Of a stretch of DNA of 64,000 nucleotides, positions 37,025-48,057 are shown piece after piece. Source of the DNA: Leptolyngbya iicbica LK (GTDB lineage: Bacteria > Cyanobacteriota > Cyanobacteriia > Phormidesmidales > Phormidesmidaceae). The translations under genes and the position numbers were made by a program. The stretch is taken from positions 271,794 to 335,793 of the forward strand of contig NZ_QVFV01000002.1 of the NCBI RefSeq assembly GCF_004212215.1, read 5' to 3'. Positions within the stretch are counted from its first letter, which is position 1. Each line of letters begins with the position of its first letter. The notes under the pieces were generated by a model. That model had not been told where the DNA came from, did not search any database, and saw only the letters and a program-made list of their open reading frames with translations.

Positions 37025-37513
37025 TTAGCTCAAGCCAGCGCATTTAGAGCACAATCCTCGGACAGTAAATTGACAATCTAAGAGAGAAAAGCCGTGGTCT
37101 AAGGCTTCTTTACTGCCTAAAGAGAGAATGGCGCTGTCTTCAAATTCCGTTACCGTACCACATTCAGTACACACCAAATGGTGATGGTCCCCCATGAGCG
37201 GATTGCAAAATTCATAATACTTGCGGCCTTCTGACAAGGTCAATTCCCGCAAAATTCCTAGATCTACTAACAAATGCAGAGCTCGATAAATGGTTGAAAA
37301 TCCAATTTTTTCGCCGCTTGCAGTCAGCTTGTCTTGTACGTCTTCAGCACTCAGATGCTCGCCTTCGGGCACTTCTCGTAGGACCTGCAAGATCTTTTGC
37401 CGCTGGTCAGTGATGCGAAATCCTTCCTGATTCAAGAGCATGCGTAGCACTTCGGCTGGATTGTCTTCTAAATAGAGCCTTTCTGAGATGTTAGAGGAAT
37501 CGGATTGGGTCAT
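37025..37513 (-). CDS. Fur-family metal or peroxide-responsive regulator
   Basis: This is a winged-helix repressor of the Fur superfamily with 162 residues. The DNA-binding part has R-I-T-D-Q-R-Q-K-I-L-Q-V-L and F-S-T-I-Y-R-A-L-H-L-L-V-D-L-G-I-L-R-E-L. The metal part has G-D-H-H-H-L-V-C-T-E-C and a second C-S-K-C at the C-terminus, so a structural Zn(Cys4) site is expected. The DNA-binding part is closest in style to cyanobacterial FurA, but FurA, Zur and PerR cannot be separated firmly. It is transcribed divergently from dps with about 230 bases between, which suggests iron or peroxide control of Dps; that is inference. Confidence 0.9.
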   Translation of the reverse strand: MTQSDSSNISERLYLEDNPAEVLRMLLNQEGFRITDQRQKILQVLREVPEGEHLSAEDVQDKLTASGEKIGFSTIYRALHLLVDLGILRELTLSEGRKYYEFCNPLMGDHHHLVCTECGTVTEFEDSAILSLGSKEALDHGFSLLDCQFTVRGLCSKCAGLS

Positions 37514-37560
37514 GATTGCTAAGCTATTGAAAGCGGTTTTCGATATGTCCTGAAATGGCT

Positions 37561-37585
37561 TATTGATAATGGTTTTCGCTATAGA
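37561..37585. promoter_or_regulatory. Possible Fur-type operator in the fur/dps divergent region
   Basis: The stretch TATTGATAATGGTTTTCGC lies between the divergent Fur and dps genes and loosely matches the GATAAT-type half of a Fur box. The right half diverges. The call rests on position and partial motif only. Confidence 0.25.
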
Positions 37586-37741
37586 AAAATATTTTGAAGA
37601 AATGAAGATTTTTGGAGCTTAATTAACTCTCGGTTGAGCAAAATAGGTCAGCTAGTAGCGTTAAGATTGAAGAGCGTGTTGAGAGCTTAATGTCAGATTT
37701 ATCTCTAAAGACTGCTGTTTGCCCATAACGAAGGAATGACT

Positions 37742-38278
37742 ATGCCGATCACCGAAACTCATTTGCAAGCCTATAGTGAGGTTGCTGACAATCCGATTTT
37801 GCTGGAAAAATCGGTTACTGAGCCCATTGTGGAAGGTCTGGGAATTGCATATGCCAGCTTTATGGGGCTGTATATGCAATATCAAAAGCATCACTTTGTT
37901 GTGGAAGGTTCGGAGTATTACATGCTCCACAACTACTTTTCTGAAAGCTACGAAGAAGTGCAAGAACATGCCCATGAAGTGGGTGAGCGTCTGCATGGCT
38001 TGGGCGGCGTGCCCCCAACGTCGTTTGGCAAGTTGGCGGAGCTGTGCTGTTTTACTCCCGAAGATGACGATGTCTATCGCTGTCGTCTGATGATTGACCA
38101 TGATTTGAAGGCAGAACAGAGCGTGATTCAAATGTTGCGTCGCTTGGCTGGACAAGCCGAGAGTTTGGGCGATCGCGCGACTCGTTACCTGTTAGAGCAG
38201 CTACTGCTCAAAACTGAAGAACGGGCTTATCACCTAGAGCACTTCTTGACACCCGATAGCCTGAAGCTAAGCTGGTAG
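37742..38278 (+). CDS. dps: Dps DNA-protection / iron-storage protein, His-type ferroxidase centre
   Basis: Dps forms a 12-subunit shell that oxidises Fe2+ and protects DNA from peroxide. The start I use, ATG 37742, follows AAGGA by six bases; ATG 37736 is alternative. The ferroxidase region has Y-Q-K-H-H-F (His 51), M-L-H (His 63) and [10 protein letters not shown] (His 78, Glu 82). In most Dps proteins the residue at the third of these positions is Asp; His is known in some cyanobacterial Dps (for example DpsA of Thermosynechococcus), where zinc binding and O2 use were reported. The protein has 178 residues and no DNA-binding lysine tail. It is divergent from the Fur gene, with a terminator behind. 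Confidence 0.93.
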
Positions 38279-38305
38279 TTTTCCACCGTCATGGAAGCCA
38301 TTGTC

Positions 38306-38340
38306 CCGTACGCTCCCAGTTAGGGGGCTGCGGGCTTTTT
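38306..38340 (+). terminator. Probable terminator of dps
   Basis: An imperfect hairpin (CCCGTACG-CTCCC with GGGGG-CTG-CGGG, loop AGTTA) runs into TTTTT, about 30 bases past the dps stop. Confidence 0.6.
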
Positions 38341-38374
38341 AATGCCTAAATAAATGGCGGCTGGGGATATCACG

Positions 38375-38476
38375 TTAGCTGAAGTAAACGGCTTTGAGAA
38401 TCCAAGCGCTCATCAGTAGATAGGCCGCAACTAGTAGCCAATGGCTCCAATTTTCGGGGTCAAAGCTGTGGGACAT
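38375..38476 (-). CDS. 33-residue single-helix membrane peptide
   Basis: This small gene is below the size usually listed. Its ATG (38474-38476) overlaps the TAA of the upstream ferredoxin-like gene in the form TAATG, so translation should be coupled. The peptide is M-S-H-S-F-D-P-E-N-W-S-H-W, then a hydrophobic helix L-L-V-A-A-Y-L-L-M-S-A-W-I-L, then K-A-V-Y-F-S. It has a short polar start and one membrane helix, the pattern of cyanobacterial small membrane subunits such as those of photosystems, cytochrome b6f or NDH-1, but I cannot match it to any. The coupling and composition argue that it is real; a chance overlap cannot be excluded. Confidence 0.6.
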   Translation of the reverse strand: MSHSFDPENWSHWLLVAAYLLMSAWILKAVYFS

Positions 38477-39129
38477 TAGGCATATTTGGTGACTATGGTG
38501 AGCGCGTTATCGGGAGTGACCCCGCTGATCACTTTTTTGGAGTGAGAGAGTTTGATATTCGGCCCTTTTTTGCAGGCTTTGAGGCAGCCAACGCCTTCAA
38601 CTGAGACGTGTTGCAAATTTGGGTCATCAGCGATCGCGGTCTCTAATGACTGCATAATTTGTCGCCCGCCCTGCTTAAAGCATTTGCCCTTGCGGCAGAC
38701 CTGTACACATAGGGGCTTGGGCGCGGATGCCGATGGCTCAGTTGGTGCGATCGCTGAAGCTTCTGAAACCGCTGCTGTATCGACGTTAGGGGATGAAGTC
38801 GGGACGAACTGACGCGCCTGCCAGTTTTCCTGCAAGTCAATCCGCTCAGGCTCTGATAAGGGCAGAATGTTGATGCCGCGCCACTGCTCAGCTTCGCAAT
38901 AGGCCCAGACCTGCACAAAGTCCCCAGGGGTTAACTCACGCACTAAAACTGGGCGCAGATATTTTGGCAACTTAATTGAGTAAGTTGCGGTCTCGGTTTG
39001 CAGACAGACGCCTTTGATTTTGCCTTTGGGCGATCGCAGCACGTCGATAAATTGGCCCTTGAGTACGACGCCTTGAGGACGTTGCAGTTGGGCACTGGCG
39101 ACACGGTCGAGGTCAGGGGTTCTTTTCAT
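38476..39129 (-). CDS. OB-fold-like protein with C-terminal [2Fe-2S] ferredoxin domain
   Basis: I start at ATG 39129 (M-K-R-T-P-D-L), within an ATGA overlap with the upstream gene. Residues about 20-110 look like a small beta-barrel (V-V-L-K-G-Q-F-I-D-V-L, G-D-F-V-Q-V-W-A-Y), possibly an OB fold. A proline-rich linker follows. Residues about 140-217 form a thioredoxin-like [2Fe-2S] ferredoxin: V-C-R-K-G-K-C-F-K-Q-G-G and V-G-C-L-K-A-C-K-K-G-P-N, giving four cysteine ligands. It is a soluble electron carrier or regulatory protein of unknown partner. Such proteins are conserved in cyanobacteria. The neighbours before and after overlap it by a few bases, so three genes form one unit. Confidence 0.82.
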   Translation of the reverse strand: MKRTPDLDRVASAQLQRPQGVVLKGQFIDVLRSPKGKIKGVCLQTETATYSIKLPKYLRPVLVRELTPGDFVQVWAYCEAEQWRGINILPLSEPERIDLQENWQARQFVPTSSPNVDTAAVSEASAIAPTEPSASAPKPLCVQVCRKGKCFKQGGRQIMQSLETAIADDPNLQHVSVEGVGCLKACKKGPNIKLSHSKKVISGVTPDNALTIVTKYA

Positions 39130-39374
39130 ACAGTTACCGTCATTTTCCAACAGGTTTCGAGAGCAGCGATCGCGGCCTCGCGAGGCAACGTCACACTGCG
39201 CACCACGCTCCAAATTTGCAATACAGCGGTAGGACTCAGGGCTGCAACTCTTAGCGGTTGGCCGCAGTCACAGGCACAGGGCACCGATAAATCCTGTAAA
39301 CGGCTGTAAATCATCCAGCGATCAACCGGGTCGAGGGTGAGCGCTACGGTCGGGTCGGGCGATGTCATTTCCAT
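39126..39374 (-). CDS. Small conserved cyanobacterial protein with Cys motif
   Basis: This 82-residue protein has P-V-D-R-W-M-I-Y-S-R-L-Q-D-L, then the cysteine motif V-P-C-A-C-D-C-G-Q-P-L and a helix with W-S-V-V-R-S-V. Three cysteines in C-x-C-x-C form could bind metal or a cluster. I recall the C-A-C-D-C-G-Q-P-L element from uncharacterised cyanobacterial proteins, without a function. Its stop overlaps the start of the [2Fe-2S] protein gene (ATGA), so the two are translationally coupled and likely act together. Confidence 0.72.
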   Translation of the reverse strand: MEMTSPDPTVALTLDPVDRWMIYSRLQDLSVPCACDCGQPLRVAALSPTAVLQIWSVVRSVTLPREAAIAALETCWKMTVTV

Positions 39375-40028: not shown

Positions 40029-40064
40029 CAAAAAACTCCCGCCCCGGTTGCCCAGGGACGGGAG
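40029..40064 (-). terminator. Terminator of the psbA-like gene
   Basis: On the minus strand the arms CTCCCGTCCC and GGGGCGGGAG (nine of ten paired, plus a loop) are followed by TTTTTTGGG, about 67 bases past the stop codon. Confidence 0.85.
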
Positions 40065-40130: not shown

Positions 40131-41216
40131 TTAATGAATTTCTGGCACGGGCACCGCATCACCACTGGCGAGTAACAGCGGGAAGTGGTGAGCATTCGGC
40201 GAGTGCATCGCCTGAATCCCTAAATCAGCGCGATTGATAATGTCGGCATTGGTCGCAATAACGCGGCCTTGGGCGTCCAAAATGGAATGCTGAAAGTTGA
40301 AACCGTTGAGATTGAACGCCATCGTGCTGACGCCCAGGGCGGCAAACCAGATGCCCAGAGTGGGCAAGGCCGCCATCAAAAAGTGGAACGACCGATGATT
40401 TGCACTCGCAGTCGTGGGAATCAACACCCGCCCTAAATAACCGTAGTGGCTGGCGAGATAGTTGTACGTGGGCTCTTGTTGCCCAAATTTATAACCGGCA
40501 TCGAGCGATTCTGATTCACTGGTCTCGCGCAGCAAACTTGATGTCACGAGGGAACCGTGGAGAGCGCTGAGCAGCGCGCCTCCAAAGATCCCAGTCACCC
40601 CTAGCATGTGGAATGGGTGCATCAAAATATTGTGCTCGGCCTGGAAGGACAGCATGAAATTGAAGGTGCCGGCAATGCCCAGAGGCAACCCTTCAGAAAA
40701 GCTGCCCTGCCCGATGGGATACACCAAAAGCACGGCGGTGGCCGCAGTCACCGGAGCCGAAAACGCGATCGCAATCCACGGTCTGAGCCCCAGACGATAG
40801 CTCAGTTCCCACTGCCGCCCCAGATAGGCCCAGACGCCAATCAAAAAGTGAAACACGATGAGCTGGTAGGGGCCACCGTTGTAGAACCATTCCGCCAGGG
40901 AACTGGCCTGCCAGACCGGATAAAAATGCAGGCCGATCGCGGCAGAAGTGGGTACCACTGCGGCGGAAATTAAGCTATTGCCATCGGTCAACGCGCCCAT
41001 CACTGGCTCGCGAATGCCGTCGACATCAACCGCTGGAGCCGCAATAAAAGCCAACACAAAACATACACTAGCGGCACAAATGGTGGGAATCATCAGGATG
41101 CCAAACCAGCCAATATAAATGCGGTTATTGGTGCTGGTCACCCACTGGCAAAATCTTTCCCATAGACTAAACAGATCGAGTTCTGTTTGCCGTCGAGTAA
41201 AGGTATTCATCCCCAA
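40131..41216 (-). CDS. psbA: Divergent D1 protein lacking Mn-cluster ligands (rogue/sentinel type)
   Basis: This is a D1 homologue of 361 residues, the photosystem II reaction-centre subunit family of the thylakoid membrane. Kept residues (standard D1 number in brackets) are D64 and D66 (59, 61), Y166 (TyrZ 161), E194 (189), H195 (190), H203 (198), H220 (215), H257 (252), H278 (272), H338 (332), H343 (337) and A350 (344). Changed are D170 to E175, E333 to S339, D342 to L348 and N87 to Ala. F255 is Leu, and there is one inserted residue and altered sequence in the QB loop around S264. Loss of these Mn ligands argues it cannot support normal water oxidation. It fits the rogue/sentinel D1 class; the ChlF (chlorophyll f synthase) class is less likely because several ligands remain. 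Tail after A350: 11 residues. Confidence 0.93.
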
Positions 41217-41965
41217 CTCCTTTTGAGATATTGTTCAGGCAATTCTCAGTAAATCGGCGTCGCTAAATCAGCCATAAGCTGGGTCTGCATAAATCAAGCA
41301 TCATGAACGATGATCAATATCTAGGCAGCGGCTTGATGGGCAGTGCAGAGAGGGACTGTAGCGACCCGCCGTAGGACAAAACTCCGAAAAATGGCAGAAA
41401 TAATATAGGCGAAATGGCAGTGCTGAGGAGATTTGTCTTGAGGCTATTTACTGACTTACTTCCTATTTTGCAAAAAGTAAAAGAAGCCACGGAGAGTATG
41501 TTGGCAAACTTGAATATCTGTAGCGTTAGTTCATAAATTAGTCTGACTCAATTTATCTAGCCCCCACTGAAGATAACGTGGCGCTGGCGCAGAATATAGC
41601 GACGAAGTGACCGCGATCGCCCTACCTGGCCTCAACACATACAACTTCAAAATCCGATAGCTTACTTTGCAAAAATGTGAAAACCCATTACAGCTTTAGG
41701 GGGCGCTCGGCAAGGTGGTTCGGGCGATCCCCGACAATGAAAATAACGTCTGATAAGCGTTTGCGGGAAATACTGCTCAATTTTCGGGTGCTACAGCGCC
41801 GCGTAGATCGCTCCGTACATCCCCATGCTGCGGACTGCTATAGACCACTGCGGCTTGCAGGCACGGTGTCTGCCCTAGCCCCTGGATGAATTAGCGATTT
41901 TAGGATGCGTCCTGAACGAGTGGTATAGCGATCGTTCAAATTTGTTGCTCACGGAGACAATTCTC
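41217..41965. promoter_or_regulatory. Upstream region of the psbA-like gene and a plus-strand gene
   Basis: About 750 bases between divergent genes. The AT-rich stretch 41440-41570 probably holds promoter elements. A 70-codon plus-strand frame at 41677-41889 has unlikely composition and no ribosome site. I see no other gene or repeat. Confidence 0.4.
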
Positions 41966-42379
41966 ATGGCAATTTCGCAGGGAATTCGATGTTCGGGATG
42001 TTTGCCTGGCCCTGGCAAACCGAGCCCCATGATGTGGGAATTGGTGCCGACCCAAATCAAGATGGTTTTACAACAAGAAGGCTGTAATTTACTGCGGCAT
42101 TGGGCGCGGCGGCAGCATCGTTCATATGTGCGCTTTCAGTATGCGCCATTGGTTTATAAAGGCGATTTGTTTTATCTACAGCGGTGGTCAGCGACAGAGT
42201 GGCATGTCTCGCCGAGTCAGCTCATTTTTCCTAATGAAGGTTGGCCTTGTTCTGAACTGACGCGACAACATGGCGGGCATTTATCTTTTATCGTGCGGCG
42301 CACAATTGCTCAGTTATTTCCCGATCCGGAGCTGCACTTTAGCGATCGCACCCCCAACAGCTTAGTCGCCCTCTCGTAG
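41966..42379 (+). CDS. Hypothetical protein
   Basis: I start at ATG 41966 (M-A-I-S-Q-G), with GGAG nine bases upstream; a TTG frame to 41942 is less likely. The protein has 137 residues. It has four cysteines (C-S-G-C-L-P-G-P-G-K near the N-terminus, E-G-C-N and P-C-S-E), a basic centre (R-H-W-A-R-R-Q-H-R-S-Y) and otherwise strand-rich sequence. No family is recognised. The first C-x-x-C might bind metal. It ends inside the 3' end of the convergent CbbY-like gene (18-base overlap). Confidence 0.6.
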   Translation: MAISQGIRCSGCLPGPGKPSPMMWELVPTQIKMVLQQEGCNLLRHWARRQHRSYVRFQYAPLVYKGDLFYLQRWSATEWHVSPSQLIFPNEGWPCSELTRQHGGHLSFIVRRTIAQLFPDPELHFSDRTPNSLVALS

Positions 42380-43174
42380 CCGTTTGACCACGCAGCTAGC
42401 GTTAGCAGGCTCAGTCATAGAGACGAGCGATCGCGCCACCGATAAATCGAAATAAGGCTGCGTGAGAAAGTGTCCCCAGAGACTCTCGCAAGGTTGGTCG
42501 GGCTTGCCCAAATGATTGAGCACGAGGGCGGCGGCGGCAAAATTTTGGCGCTTAGTGTATTCGTTCACTGTAATCACCGTGGTGAGGCCAGCTCCCTGAG
42601 CGGCGGTGAGACCGTGTTCGGTGTCTTCAATGACGAGACAGTTCTGAGCGTCAAGGGCCATCTTATCCAGCACGTAATGATAAATATCAGCGGCTGGTTT
42701 TTTGCGGGGCACAATGTCCCCCGCCGCAATGACTTCAAACCAGCTGGGGGCGTCGGGCGCTAGAGCAGTTTCTAAAAGCGCCAACGCATTTTCCAGGCGG
42801 CTCGTGGTGGCGATCGCTAAGCGGACATTTTGTTGCCGAGCCTCATTGATTAAGCGCTTAATGCCTGGCCGCAGTGAGATCTGACCGGCCTGTAGTAGCG
42901 CTGTGTAGTAACCGGTTTTCGCGTGGTGGAGTTCGGCAATAAGGTCATCCAAATCGCGATCGCTAGGCAGCGGCGGCGCATATTTGTCGATAAAGAAGTG
43001 GATGCGCTCTTTACCGCCTGCCACTTGCAACAACACGCCGTAAATGCCCTCTGACCAGTACCAAGGCAAGCCCGCTGCGGCAAAGGCTTGATTAAACGCC
43101 ACTCGATGACCGTCGCGTTCGGTTTCGGCTAGGGTGCCATCCACATCAAAAATGAGCGCTTGCAAAGTCGTCAT
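42362..43174 (-). CDS. HAD-family phosphatase, CbbY-like
   Basis: This 270-residue HAD hydrolase has motif I F-D-V-D-G-T-L-A-E-T-E-R-D-G-H (nucleophile Asp about residue 9), motif II A-I-A-T-T-S, the lysine of motif III in R-K-K-P-A-A-D-I-Y and motif IV V-I-E-D-T-E-H-G. The E-T-E-R-D-G-H-R-V-A-F-N element is typical of the CbbY group. In plants and Rhodobacter CbbY dephosphorylates xylulose-1,5-bisphosphate, a misfire inhibitor of Rubisco. A matching role in this autotroph is plausible, though no Calvin-cycle gene is adjacent (rbcL is 9 kb away). It overlaps the convergent gene at its end by 18 bases. Confidence 0.87.
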   Translation of the reverse strand: MTTLQALIFDVDGTLAETERDGHRVAFNQAFAAAGLPWYWSEGIYGVLLQVAGGKERIHFFIDKYAPPLPSDRDLDDLIAELHHAKTGYYTALLQAGQISLRPGIKRLINEARQQNVRLAIATTSRLENALALLETALAPDAPSWFEVIAAGDIVPRKKPAADIYHYVLDKMALDAQNCLVIEDTEHGLTAAQGAGLTTVITVNEYTKRQNFAAAALVLNHLGKPDQPCESLWGHFLTQPYFDLSVARSLVSMTEPANASCVVKRLREGD

Positions 43175-44229
43175 AATGATTTCTCAGGTAAATACGGGTG
43201 ATTAAACAGAGTCGTCCGATGCATCGGGATGAAGGGCGATCGCCGCCATTTCCAAAATTATCCTTGCCCGCGACCATTGCCTCGTCTTGACTGAGTCACT
43301 TCCCAGCCTGGTGTCAGAGCAGGAGTGCGGGCAAAGGGCATTATCCCTCAAGGTTCCCTCAGTAAACGATTTCGACTCGGCTCAACTCAAACGGGTGCGG
43401 CATCGGCGCTCAGAAGCAGTGAGATTTAGGTATATTTACAAACTCTGGCAGAGCTGGCCGTAGGGGGCTTAGTTTAAAAGCACCGAGCGATAATTCCCCA
43501 GGTATCTGTTTAGCGTCAGGCTGCTACTGATCCCCCTAAAGCCCTGTGGGCATGGCTGCGCTAAAACAAGGGGGACTTCGAGCCGGCATATTCTGAGCCC
43601 CCTTGGCAAGGGGGCAGCGACAGCGGGGGATCTAAAGCCCCGCTAAACAGATACTTCCCTAGCGGCAATGATTGCCTCGGTCTGTAGCCATGGCGTGACG
43701 TGATGTGTGAGGATACATCCAGTCTCCGTGTTATCTCGCATGTGAGTGGGTGACTCATTAGCGGTGGCTCAGCGTCAACGCCCCGCGATTTAGGGTGGAA
43801 TAGGGGACAGCGCATTTCAACAAAAGTCTATGATGACGATGCCACTGGGTGCGTTGGGAGACTCCGCAAATTTATCAAGGATTATTACTGCGTCATGCTT
43901 ATCGGGACGCCCTAGTGAATCATAAAGATGCGCGAATAGTTAGCTAGTCGTTAGGTCTGAGGATATGGCGATCGCTTCGCCTGGAGGCGGGTCTCATCAG
44001 ACTTTTCTGTTATGTGTCAAGCTCTAGTTGGGCCGCTAATGTACTATCCCACCTTGGTCCTCGGAGGCGATGGTCATCACTCTCCCCCAGTATCCGTTCT
44101 TACAGGGGTGATGTTGCTAAGCGGGCGGCGGTGGTGATGGGGCTTTCTGAATGACTGAACTATAGCGCTCTAGCGATCGCTCATATGACTCTACTCGTCA
44201 GCGTCCACCCTGTTTGACCCTTCATTGTG
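43175..44229. other. Long intergenic region with foldback repeat
   Basis: About 1050 bases upstream of cph2. Apart from the inverted-repeat element at 43502-43654 I see no gene: open frames are short and lack ribosome sites. The last 150 bases should hold the cph2 promoter. Confidence 0.5.
43502..43654. repeat. MITE-like foldback element
   Basis: Perfect 14-bp outer arms GTATCTGTTTAGCG (43502-43515) and CGCTAAACAGATAC (43641-43654) frame a 125-base core with further partial complementarity (GATCCCCCTAAAGCC against GGGGGATCTAAAGCCCC). The CCCCCT/AGGGGG core is a common dispersed repeat type in cyanobacteria. No coding capacity. Confidence 0.7.
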
Positions 44230-47200
44230 ATGCTTCCCCACTCCCCCATGCCGCCGCAATCTAACCTGGTTGATGAAATTGCTGTTCTGATCAACGAGGC
44301 GAAAGATCTACCCACACTGCTGCAACAAATCGCGGTTAAAGTACGGGGCTTTTTGGCGGTCGATCGCATCAAGATTTATCAGTTTGCAGCGGATGAGAGT
44401 GGCGCGGTCGTGGCCGAAGCGATCGATCAGCAACGGTTGCCTTCCCTGCTGGGGCTACACTTTCCCGCGACCGATATTCCTCCCGAGGCGAGGCGGGAAC
44501 TGTGCCATTCACCCCACGGCACGCTCATTGATGTGGCCAGCAAATGTAAGATTCGGTGCCAGGGATTACTCGCTCATACCGGGCATGTCCTTCAGCCCAC
44601 ATCAGGCGTCGAGACCTTTGAGCCAGTCGATCCTTGCCATCTGCAATATTTGCTCAACATGGGGGTGCTCACGTCCTTAACTATGCCGATTTTGCAAAAG
44701 CAGGCCATGTGGGGATTATTGGTCGCTCACCACAGCTCATCAAAGCGATTTTCCGATACGCAACTCGCCACCCTGGAACTGATCACCAAAGAAATCACCC
44801 TCTGCATTGCTCAAAAAACATTGCAGCAAGCGGCCCAGCGCCAACAAGTCGAAGAGGCTTTTTTGCAACGGGTAGAAACCGTGTTTCACGGGTATCAGCC
44901 GCACTGGACTCCCAGCTCGCCCCCGGTGGTCGATCGCCTGACTCCCCTACTGAACGAAATGCTGACCCTGTTTCGGGCTGATGGCAGTGCCGTTTATTTT
45001 GCTCCGAGCTTGGTTTTAGAGCAGCCGCGCGTTTATAGCCAAGGCTGTGCCACTGAGCAGCTCGCCGCTTTGGTCGATTACATGCCCTGGCAGATCTTGT
45101 TGCAGGGCCAGGTGTCGTCCCCTCGCTCGTTAGATCAGGTGCCGCCCGATGCCCCGACGATGCCCCAGATCGTGACGCAAATGTATGAGCGGGATGATCT
45201 CGCCGCTGATGAGACGATTCACAACGCCTTAGCGATCGCCCAGGTTGGCGCGTTACTAATCATCCCCATTCACTCGCATCAACACTGGTTAGGCAGCATC
45301 GTGTTGCTGCGACAAGAACGGCAGCTCGAAAAACTCTGGGCGGGCCGCCAACGCGACGATGACCGCAATACGCTGCCTCGACAATCGTTTGCCGCCTGGT
45401 GCGAACATCAGCACACCACGCCCCCCTGGCAAGCCGCCGATTATCAACTTGGGCAAAAGGTGGGACATCATTTTTATATTGCATTAGTGCGACAACACCT
45501 CGCTCATTTAATTGACTATCAAGCCGCTCACGATGGCTTGACGCAGCTGCCCAATGCCGACTTTTTTCGCGGGCAGCTGGTGTTGGCGATCAATCAAGCC
45601 ATCACGACTGGGGAACTGCTGGCCACTATCATGATTGACCTCAACCACTTTAAGCGGGTGAACAACGCGCTGGGGGTGATGGCGGGTGACTATTTGTTGA
45701 AGGAAGTGGCCCAGCGGTTGCAAAGTGGACTGCAAGCGCGATCGCTGACCGATGCGATCTTGTCGCGCTGGCACGGTGACTGCTTTATCTTGCTACTGCC
45801 CAATGTGGTCGACAGCCAGAGCGTTAAGCAACACTGCCAGTGGTTGTTAGAACGGCTGCAAGACCGATTTATCGTCTGTGGCGAAACGGTGCAGCTCACC
45901 GGCAATGCTGGCATCACCTTTGCCCCCTATGACGGCGATACCTACGAGCTGATCATTCAACATACTGAGCTGGCCTTGAATGAGGCCAAAAAACAGGGCA
46001 TTGCCGCCTGCGTCACTTACGACGCGGACATGAGTCGCCATACCCTGAGCCCGCGCCTAGCCCTAGAGTCGGCCCTGAGCCATGCCCTAGAGCGGCACGA
46101 GCTGCAACTGCATTATCAGCCGCAAGTCAATGTCGAGACGGGCGAAATTTGGGGATTTGAAGGGTTGCTCCGCTGGCATTCGCCTGAGCATGGTCAGGTC
46201 TCGCCAGCGGTGTTTATCCCCATGGCCGAAAATCTGGGACTCATTCGCCAGCTTGGTTTTTGGGTCTTTCGCACGGCCTGCACCCAAGTCGTGGCCTGGC
46301 AGCGACAAACTAACCTCAGCTGTCGCATCAGTGTCAATCTCTCGCCCCACCAGTTGCGCGACCCGGATTTGTGTCAGCACTTTGAGCGCATTTTGGCCGA
46401 GACTGGCGCTCGGCCCCAAGATCTGGGGTTAGAAATCACTGAAAGCACCGTGATGGATGACTATGAGGCTGCCGTGTTTACCCTGGGTAAATTGCGGGCC
46501 ATGGGGTTTGAGATTGCCATTGACGATTTTGGTACGGGCTATTCTTCCCTCAGCGTCTTGCGAACTTTGCCCATTGATACGTTCAAAATTGCACAGCAAT
46601 TTTTGCAGGGCATCTTGTCTTCTGCTAAAGATGCTGCGCTCTATCAGGTCATTGTCAGCCTGGGCACCTCGTTAGATTTGACGATCCTTGCCGAAGGCGT
46701 GGAAACCCAAGCCGAATGGGATTTTGTGAAGTCGGCTGGGGTGCACATTGTGCAGGGCTATTTTTCTGGCAAACCGATGATGGCGGGGCTGGTGCCGGGC
46801 TGGCTGCAACAGCAACGGCGACGGAGTCAGCTGAGTACTGGTTTGGACTCGGCGCCAATCGTGCTACCTAAGCCTGAGGCGGAGGCGACGGCAGCCCTCT
46901 CGTTGGTGACTCATTTAACGGCGGAGCCGACTTATCCCAACCTAGAGCAGGCCATTCAACAAGGGCTGATGGAATATCACCAGATTCAAGACCTGATGCA
47001 ACAGCAAACTGAACGCGAGCATTTGGTGCTGGAAATTGCCAACAAGATTCGCCAATCGCTGGATCTGGGTTACATCCTCGAGACGTTGGTGACGGAGGTG
47101 CGCCAGGTATTGGGGTGCGATCGCCTGTTTCTCTTTCAGTTTGATGAGCATTGGGCCGGTGAGGTGACCGTTGAGTCGGTGAGTGATCCGGTTTATTCCA

Positions 47201-48057
47201 TCCTGGGGGAATGGATCGACGAGCCTTGTTTTCGCAATGAATATGTGAAGCTCTATCGTCAGGGCCGGGTTCGGGCGATCGACGACATTACCCAAGTCGG
47301 GTTGCATGCCTGCCATTTGCACATGTTGCAGCAGTATCAGGTGAAGTCTAATTTAGTGCTGCCCATTCTGTATCAGGATGACTTGTGGGGCTTGATGATT
47401 GCTCACCAGTGTGATGCGGTGCGCCACTGGCAATCGAGCGAAATTACGTTGATGAAAGAGATTGCCGTGCAGGCAGCGATCGCCATTCATCAGGGCGAGA
47501 TGTATCAGGAGTTGCAGGCCGCCAACGCCAGCCTCGAGCAGTTGGCTCACCTCGATGGGTTGACGCAGATTCCCAATCGCCGCAAATTTGACGAGCATTT
47601 GGCCCATGAATGGCGCCGCGCTCTGCGATCGCACCAATCGCTTTCGCTCATCCTGTGTGATATTGACCATTTCAAACAATATAACGACTCCTATGGTCAC
47701 CAGGCGGGCGATTATTGCCTCCAGCAAGTGGCCCAAACGTTATCGCAATTGGTGCAGCGGCCTAGCGACTTGGTGACCCGCTACGGCGGAGAAGAGTTTG
47801 CCATCGTGTTGCCCGACACCACTGCCGAAGGTGCCCTGCATTTAGCACAAAAGCTACAGGCCCATGTGCGGGCATTGTCCCTGCCCCATCAGCATTCCGC
47901 GTTGGGCGTCGTCACCATCAGCTTAGGGGTCGCAACCCTGCTGCCCCAGGCCGGTCAGAGCCCCAACCAGTTGATTGAGGCGGCTGACCAAGCGCTGTAT
48001 CAAGCGAAGGCCGCTGGCCGCGATCGCTGCTGTGTCCAGACTGCCAGCCCGGTATAA
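44230..48057 (+). CDS. cph2: Cph2-type phytochrome-like cyclic di-GMP protein
   Basis: Domain order is GAF1 (about 15-195), GAF2 (210-430), GGDEF1 (435-605), EAL (615-860), GAF3 (925-1095) and GGDEF2 (1105-1270), the order of Synechocystis Cph2, with almost the same length. GAF1 has F-P-A-T-D-I-P-P and the bilin cysteine in P-C-H-L-Q-Y. GAF3 has A-C-H-L-H-M with a second cysteine 28 residues earlier in E-P-C-F, the dual-Cys layout of blue/green cyanobacteriochromes (here E instead of D in D-x-C-F). GGDEF1 is degenerate (W-H-G-D-C-F). The EAL has E-G-L-L-R and D-D-F-G-T-G-Y. GGDEF2 is intact (Y-G-G-E-E-F). It should couple light quality to cyclic di-GMP. GTG 44227 is an alternative start. Confidence 0.93.
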   Translation: MLPHSPMPPQSNLVDEIAVLINEAKDLPTLLQQIAVKVRGFLAVDRIKIYQFAADESGAVVAEAIDQQRLPSLLGLHFPATDIPPEARRELCHSPHGTLIDVASKCKIRCQGLLAHTGHVLQPTSGVETFEPVDPCHLQYLLNMGVLTSLTMPILQKQAMWGLLVAHHSSSKRFSDTQLATLELITKEITLCIAQKTLQQAAQRQQVEEAFLQRVETVFHGYQPHWTPSSPPVVDRLTPLLNEMLTLFRADGSAVYFAPSLVLEQPRVYSQGCATEQLAALVDYMPWQILLQGQVSSPRSLDQVPPDAPTMPQIVTQMYERDDLAADETIHNALAIAQVGALLIIPIHSHQHWLGSIVLLRQERQLEKLWAGRQRDDDRNTLPRQSFAAWCEHQHTTPPWQAADYQLGQKVGHHFYIALVRQHLAHLIDYQAAHDGLTQLPNADFFRGQLVLAINQAITTGELLATIMIDLNHFKRVNNALGVMAGDYLLKEVAQRLQSGLQARSLTDAILSRWHGDCFILLLPNVVDSQSVKQHCQWLLERLQDRFIVCGETVQLTGNAGITFAPYDGDTYELIIQHTELALNEAKKQGIAACVTYDADMSRHTLSPRLALESALSHALERHELQLHYQPQVNVETGEIWGFEGLLRWHSPEHGQVSPAVFIPMAENLGLIRQLGFWVFRTACTQVVAWQRQTNLSCRISVNLSPHQLRDPDLCQHFERILAETGARPQDLGLEITESTVMDDYEAAVFTLGKLRAMGFEIAIDDFGTGYSSLSVLRTLPIDTFKIAQQFLQGILSSAKDAALYQVIVSLGTSLDLTILAEGVETQAEWDFVKSAGVHIVQGYFSGKPMMAGLVPGWLQQQRRRSQLSTGLDSAPIVLPKPEAEATAALSLVTHLTAEPTYPNLEQAIQQGLMEYHQIQDLMQQQTEREHLVLEIANKIRQSLDLGYILETLVTEVRQVLGCDRLFLFQFDEHWAGEVTVESVSDPVYSILGEWIDEPCFRNEYVKLYRQGRVRAIDDITQVGLHACHLHMLQQYQVKSNLVLPILYQDDLWGLMIAHQCDAVRHWQSSEITLMKEIAVQAAIAIHQGEMYQELQAANASLEQLAHLDGLTQIPNRRKFDEHLAHEWRRALRSHQSLSLILCDIDHFKQYNDSYGHQAGDYCLQQVAQTLSQLVQRPSDLVTRYGGEEFAIVLPDTTAEGALHLAQKLQAHVRALSLPHQHSALGVVTISLGVATLLPQAGQSPNQLIEAADQALYQAKAAGRDRCCVQTASPV

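Follow-up and report, generated by a model that had tools for sequence, protein, structure and literature searches.

The rogue psbA gene and its signals

The window, as we call the whole stretch of 64,000 nucleotides of the Leptolyngbya iicbica LK genome analysed here, carries on its minus strand a psbA-like gene for a D1 protein of the rogue (Group 2, or sentinel) type. Residue numbers are those of Synechocystis D1. The gene and its features are listed below, each with the evidence by which it was recognised.

40131..41210, minus strand: psbA-like gene for a rogue (Group 2, sentinel) D1, 359 amino acids, ATG start, TAA stop (reading frame, TIGR01151, residues, tree)
41217..41224, minus strand: ribosome-binding site AAAAGGAG, 6 nt 5' of the ATG at 41210 (sequence letters)
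40392..40469, minus strand: segment of the QB (DE) loop, D1 residues 245-269, with an extra residue after H252, L255, P261, A264 and S265 (alignment, translation)
40167..40205, minus strand: C-terminal ligand segment H332-A344 (H332, S333, H337, L342, L343, A344), followed by a short extension (alignment, translation)
40030..40064, minus strand: intrinsic terminator, a GC-rich hairpin followed by TTTTTT, about 67 bases past the stop codon (fold and letters)

The minus-strand frame from 40131 to 41216 has no internal stop and encodes a full-length D1. The initial annotation had taken this whole frame as the gene. The frame stands, but the TTG at 41216 is an unlikely start codon: it lies directly 3' of the ribosome-binding site, and from the sequence the ATG at 41210 is likely the true start. 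The protein matches the NCBIfam psbA model TIGR01151 with 604.5 bits, just above the cut-off of 596.05, and the GC content of the gene (0.54) equals that of the whole window. Downstream, the terminator hairpin folds with −24.1 kcal/mol (z −5.0), and none of 200 shuffled sequences did equally well; a consensus terminator scan did not return the hairpin at 40030..40064. With this strong hairpin and its six T behind the stop codon, the gene probably terminates its own transcript.

Between the window gene and the rogue locus L130, dN/dS is 0.063, at a dS of 2.9 that is near saturation. Two other rogue pairs give 0.092 and 0.060, which indicates purifying selection, and five more pairs yield no value, their dS being saturated.

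Membership of the rogue clade

We compared the window protein with 40 other rogue sequences. The 41 rogue rows consist of 18 seeds (the window gene and 17 loci) and 23 rows added by profile score. The seeds were picked by eye from 80 loci. A87 and the QB-loop insertion were among the criteria, a circularity for which a tree without the trait columns serves as the control. The main tree has 78 rows, comprising 41 rogue, 5 ChlF, 4 far-red (FRL) and 28 standard or Group 3 (G3) sequences, three PDB chains among them. They were selected from 137 distinct D1 sequences, and the 59 left out are further standard-type rows. Also left out were the fragment L005 and the partial open reading frame of L115, and the seed L011 is represented by its identical copy L131. 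The tree contains neither a Group 0 (Gloeobacter) row nor the published PsbA4 of Cyanothece 51142.

In this tree the 41 rogue rows form one side of a single branch with support 99/94. The five ChlF rows are a separate group (100/100), and the four far-red D1 rows fall within the standard rows. Removing the trait columns (positions 87, 170, 181 and 189, the DE loop, and everything from residue 317 onward) leaves the rogue clade with support of 96/91. In a quick tree extended by two plasmid-borne Nostoc rogue D1, a named ChlF and a named far-red D1, all 43 rogue rows are again on one side (SH-aLRT 98). The window protein is 68–77% identical to the rogue rows, 63–70% to standard D1, 62–64% to far-red D1, 71% to the one Group 3 row and 49–53% to ChlF. 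Judged by the long end branch of its own (0.4 in the 78-protein tree), it is a rather divergent member of the clade.

By sequence, the window gene belongs to a known family, that of rogue (Group 2) D1. The rogue or sentinel identity proposed in the initial annotation is thus upheld by the clade, by the loss of E333 and D342, by E170, which Group 2 allows, and by the absence of the ChlF motif; the tree it had called for places the gene in the rogue clade and outside standard D1, with and without the trait columns. According to PMC4773611, Group 2 D1 proteins carry either E170 or D170.

Full-length profile scores of D1 proteins from 39 related genomes fall into two groups separated by a gap (at least 670 versus at most 638 bits), and the high-scoring, rogue kind is found in 10 of the 39 genomes, in one of them as two copies. 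In a sample of the phylum, a rogue D1 is present in at least 16 of 386 genomes, a lower bound, as five candidates were scored per genome under a strict cut-off. One relative, genome G019, has two different rogue D1 genes (L126 and L131), which sit on separate branches of the clade.

The donor side

At the positions relevant for the Mn4CaO5 cluster the window protein has A87, Y161, E170, N181, E189, H190, H332, S333, H337, L342 and A344. The first reading of these residues was correct throughout, both for those changed (E170, S333, L342, A87) and for those kept (Y161, H190, E189, H332, H337, A344). Compared with the standard ligand set (D170, E189, H332, E333, H337, D342, A344), E333 and D342 are absent.

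Across the clade, E333 is lost, D342 is lost and N87 is replaced by Ala in every one of the 41 rogue rows. H337 is kept in all 41 and H332 in 39. Position 344 is more variable (A in 24 rows, S in 15, F in one, a stop in one), as is position 170 (E in 23, D in 17, Q in one). The window protein is unlike most rogue rows in that it retains both E189, kept in 7 of 41, and N181, kept in 4 of 41; the carboxylate pair E170/E189 is found in only six. Its C-terminus has lost D342, yet L343-A344-S345 and an extension remain. In this it would also differ from PsbA4 and from atypical D1 as described in print, whose cleavage motif is reported as lost. The rogue frame L154 (G185) stops at a TAG after L343, in place of A344, and has no extension.

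Not all of these changes carry the same weight. Of the ligand losses proposed at the outset, those of E333 and D342 are genuine; E170 is a conservative change, present in 23 of the 41 rogue rows, and is not a loss in the same sense. PMC10535343 states that D170E has little effect, yet the same paper cites a D170E photosystem II that oxidises Mn without evolving oxygen. E333D is described there as abolishing oxygen evolution. Loss of normal water oxidation in the window protein is predicted, with good support, from the absence of E333 and D342 and not from E170. The earlier expectation that normal oxygen evolution is unlikely is therefore retained on the strength of these two losses, which all 41 rogue rows share. 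Since the window protein keeps E170, E189, H332, H337 and A344, more than most of the clade, partial Mn binding is possible.

The reaction-centre residues are kept in the window: the P680 ligand H198, the TyrZ-H190 pair, and the non-haem iron ligands H215 and H272. Two other rogue loci, L134 (G027) and L153 (G361), read MHPASWLGV where MHPFHMLGV or MHPLHMLGV is usual, so that the P680 ligand H198 becomes Ser.

The acceptor side

All 41 rogue rows carry a single additional residue in the QB loop; none of the 32 standard, far-red and Group 3 rows or of the five ChlF rows has one there. The alignment puts it after H252, and in 24 of the 41 rows it is a Tyr. H252 is kept in all 41 rows if the insertion sits after it; an insertion before H252 would shift the histidine by one. 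The distance from 'SLV' (residue 217) to 'NLNGFNF' gives the same answer independently of any alignment, with 80 residues in all 41 rogue rows and 79 in 28 of the 32 standard, far-red and Group 3 rows, the other four having 81 or 84; the comparison covers these rows, and the NLNGFNF motif was not found in the five ChlF rows. Hence, the extra residue first seen in the window is confirmed by both the alignment and the loop length.

The substitutions are similarly widespread. S264 is absent from all 41 rogue rows (A in 27, G in 13, N in one), position 255 is Leu in 38 and position 261 is Pro in 40. Position 265 is Ser in 24 rows, including the window, and the A264-S265 pair of the window protein is found in 17. 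In the comparison rows S264 is present in 28 of 32, and the remaining three with Glu and one with Ala have longer loops. The window protein has L255, A264 and S265, in line with the differences around positions 255 and 264 noticed initially. It had also been thought that the QB-side changes could be new. They are real but not peculiar to the window gene: in sequence, they mark the sampled rogue clade as a whole. A description of QB changes in rogue D1 was not found in the open-access literature, a search outside of which the group's primary papers fall; the passages it led to deal with ChlF or with the physiology of PsbA4. The literature covered treats the rogue variant chiefly in terms of the Mn ligands it lacks.

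What these changes do may be judged from the wild-type pocket and its mutants. S264 and the backbone of F265 form hydrogen bonds to QB, and S264 also bonds to H252, as described in PMC10535343. S264K is reported to impair QA reoxidation, and S264A is listed among the changes that raise sensitivity to photoinhibitory light (PMC6170454). In Chlamydomonas the QA-to-QB step has no driving force once F265 is changed to Ser, and the cells are still able to grow autotrophically, according to PMC11645544. With A264 and S265 the window protein resembles S264A and F265S, which are single changes in a water-splitting D1, whereas the window combines both naturally with an insertion and with missing cluster ligands. 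The behaviour of the mutants at positions 264 and 265 suggests that QA-to-QB transfer would be slow in rogue photosystem II.

One could also argue that the pocket has changed less than its sequence implies. PMC12096807 describes the regions T248-L258 and S264-F265 as structurally well conserved across D1 groups in AlphaFold models, which would not fit a heavily rebuilt pocket in Group 2. In addition, a shift in the register of the loop could let the Ser at 265 do the work of S264. Our own AlphaFold2 run on an 18-row alignment had a mean pLDDT of 44.9, too low to model the QB loop.

Genome, neighbourhood and nitrogen fixation

The window comes from a cyanobacterial assembly of 5.7 Mb that is 99.99% complete. 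The matches to PF00124 in it comprise two full-length D1 genes of the ordinary kind, the rogue gene, one full-length D2 (TIGR01152, 777.9 bits), a piece of psbA and the end of a psbD. The psbA piece (L005, contig C1 of this genome) is the 5' part of an ordinary gene running into N. The psbD piece (L006, contig C6) is a 3' end at a contig end; over 104 residues it does not differ from the full-length D2. The genome probably has at least one further psbA and at least one further psbD copy that are incompletely assembled.

The initial annotation had proposed a search for nitrogenase and far-red genes elsewhere in the genome. A complete nif cluster is present (nifB, nifS, nifU, nifH, nifD, nifK and a fused nifEN), and there is no ChlF-like match among the PF00124 matches of this genome.

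On both sides of the rogue gene (window positions 37025-39213 and 42362-48057) lie genes for a Fur-family regulator, DpsA, a HAD hydrolase and a GGDEF/EAL protein, along with one for a protein with weak 2Fe-2S ferredoxin similarity. No conserved neighbourhood was seen at the rogue loci compared. Window open reading frames of at least 80 amino acids that lie outside the psbA stretch found no match at the 17 other rogue loci (thresholds E 1e-8 and more than 30% identity), and when the flanking families of 17 rogue loci were compared, none was common to more than four. In a comparison of window frames of at least 150 amino acids with twelve loci, the only matches were those of two window frames, one of them the GGDEF/EAL protein, to a single frame of L129.

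Rogue D1 and nitrogenase tend to occur together. Among the relatives, nifD is found in 9 of the 10 rogue genomes and in 11 of the 29 others (Fisher p = 0.008); within the window's family f1 the counts are 7 of 8 and 4 of 16 (p = 0.008). These counts include two nifD fragments at contig edges (G020 with a rogue gene, G026 without), and leaving them out gives p = 0.025 for the relatives and 0.032 for the family. In the phylum sample, 13 of 16 rogue genomes and 58 of 370 others have nifD (p = 4e-8), a figure that takes two draws of 386 as the same genomes, their handles agreeing wherever shown in both. All of these tests treat genomes as independent and ignore kinship. No nifD match was found, at the levels used, in the rogue genomes G009 (relatives), G152, G185 and G259 (phylum sample). 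Since four rogue genomes are without a nifD match, rogue D1 is not tied to nitrogenase.

The window protein agrees with published rogue D1 (PsbA4 of Cyanothece sp. ATCC 51142 and PCC 7822) in these points: the C-terminal Mn ligands are lost, position 170 is Glu or Asp, TyrZ and H190 are kept, the protein branches apart from ChlF and standard D1, and the genome has nif genes. Experiments on psbA4 point in more than one direction. Its expression in the dark, reported for Cyanothece 7822 (PMC4320622), supports the sentinel idea. Provided as the only D1 in Synechocystis, psbA4 is stated to give a non-photosynthetic strain (PMC9640542). Deleting it in Cyanothece 51142 had small effects, and electron-transport regulation is described in the same paper as independent of psbA4. 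The mild deletion phenotype speaks against a large role and leaves the sentinel role weakly supported. PMC9640542 proposes for PsbA4 complexes an unidentified, possibly enzymatic role.

A photosystem II that probably does not split water

We think it probable, with a probability of about 0.8, that the window gene is a known rogue D1 whose photosystem II is inactive in water oxidation and is probably also throttled on the quinone side. Within photosystem II, rogue D1 would substitute for the ordinary protein. With Ala in place of N87 and no carboxylate at either 333 or 342, rogue D1 could not hold the Mn4CaO5 cluster in its normal form. The complex should still separate charge, given that H198, TyrZ-H190, H215 and H272 are kept. 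With slow transfer from QA to QB, the charges would mostly recombine within the complex. The likely use of such a complex would be to keep photosystem II assembled and free of oxygen production during nitrogenase activity, in darkness or under low oxygen. The sequence, the clade, the residues, the terminator hairpin and the nif genes of this genome are observed; from them and from the literature we infer the assembly, the lack of oxygen evolution by the window member, the slow transfer, the timing of expression and a role during nitrogen fixation.

A more specific version, which we put forward tentatively and consider somewhat less probable than its opposite, is that the family is closed at both ends: water oxidation is lost, and a conserved, rebuilt QB pocket removes the driving force from QA to QB, leaving a self-recombining plug that exports no electrons. 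If this is the case, then the plug would keep the complex assembled and harmless during oxygen-sensitive work such as nitrogen fixation. A QB-site change that marks the sampled clade would also be a directly measurable handle on the function of this photosystem II variant.

Other explanations

The strongest competitor is that rogue photosystem II oxidises something other than water, for example Mn(II), or has an unknown enzymatic role of the kind ChlF has. The window protein keeps Y161, H190, E170, E189, H332, H337 and A344, and both the Mn-oxidising D170E photosystem cited in PMC10535343 and the enzymatic role suggested for PsbA4 complexes in PMC9640542 fit this idea. We nevertheless regard it as improbable. 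Only 7 of the 41 rogue rows retain E189, and 24 retain A344, which argues that normal Mn binding is no constraint on the clade, and the QB changes would point to little net electron output.

It is far less likely that the window gene encodes a chlorophyll f synthase (ChlF, Group 1, or super-rogue D1) or another far-red D1. Like the window protein, ChlF is a D1 paralogue without cluster ligands and has F147, and of the five other genomes sampled from the genus, three (G001, G002, G003) have ChlF-like genes, judged by residues. Six ChlF sequences, the five in the tree and the named ChlF from the FaRLiP cluster of Fischerella NIES-4106, have Q127-D128, E130, F147, Q252 and D298 and no His at 332. 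At these sites the window protein has L127, G128, Q130, F147, H252, N298 and H332. The QD motif, present in all five ChlF rows and the named sequence, is absent from all 41 rogue rows, and where the window keeps H252, N298 and H332 all five ChlF rows have Gln, Asp and a residue other than His; the Fischerella protein agrees with the sampled ChlF at these five positions. Identity to ChlF is 49–53%, as opposed to 68–77% to the rogue rows. Nor does the gene lie in a FaRLiP cluster, its nearest named neighbours being those for the Fur-family regulator, DpsA and the others given above. The missing Q127-D128, the kept H252, N298 and H332 and the separate clade rule out ChlF, which the initial annotation had named as the main alternative and for whose specific residues it had suggested looking.

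A low-oxygen D1 (Group 3, D1') can be rejected as well. Phe at 147 is shared with the chain of PDB 7yq2, the sole Group 3 row, which we take to be a Group 3 D1, but this row has D170, E333 and D342 and sits with the standard rows, so that ligands and tree place both speak against it.

Finally, it is very improbable that the gene is an ordinary psbA in decay or an artefact (a pseudogene, an assembly error or the base-calling error at the changed codons that had been raised as a concern), even though another psbA copy in the assembly runs into an N gap. The frame is intact, dN/dS is low, and ribosome-binding site and terminator hairpin are in place. Rogue rows from independent genomes share A87, S, A or G at 333, a residue other than Asp at 342, and the insertion.

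Rogue and other psbA genes on plasmids and in phages

Rogue psbA genes are also found on plasmids. One (L159) is on plasmid pNSMS102 of Nostoc sp. MS1, which is typed as conjugative, and another (L160) is on plasmid3 of Nostoc carneum NIES-2107; in the plasmid search both matches examined as rogue candidates proved to be rogue. Plasmids are a possible route for the spread of the family. In the phage search the best 10 of 512 records were all annotated as D1.

Other members of the D1 family are carried by plasmids too. The mobilizable plasmid pNsp_g of Nostoc sp. ATCC 53789 has a frameshifted ordinary psbA at which no gene is listed (L161). Plasmid2 of Fischerella sp. NIES-4106 carries a far-red cluster (L162) with ChlF, a far-red D1, apc genes, psbD, psbC and a CP47 gene.
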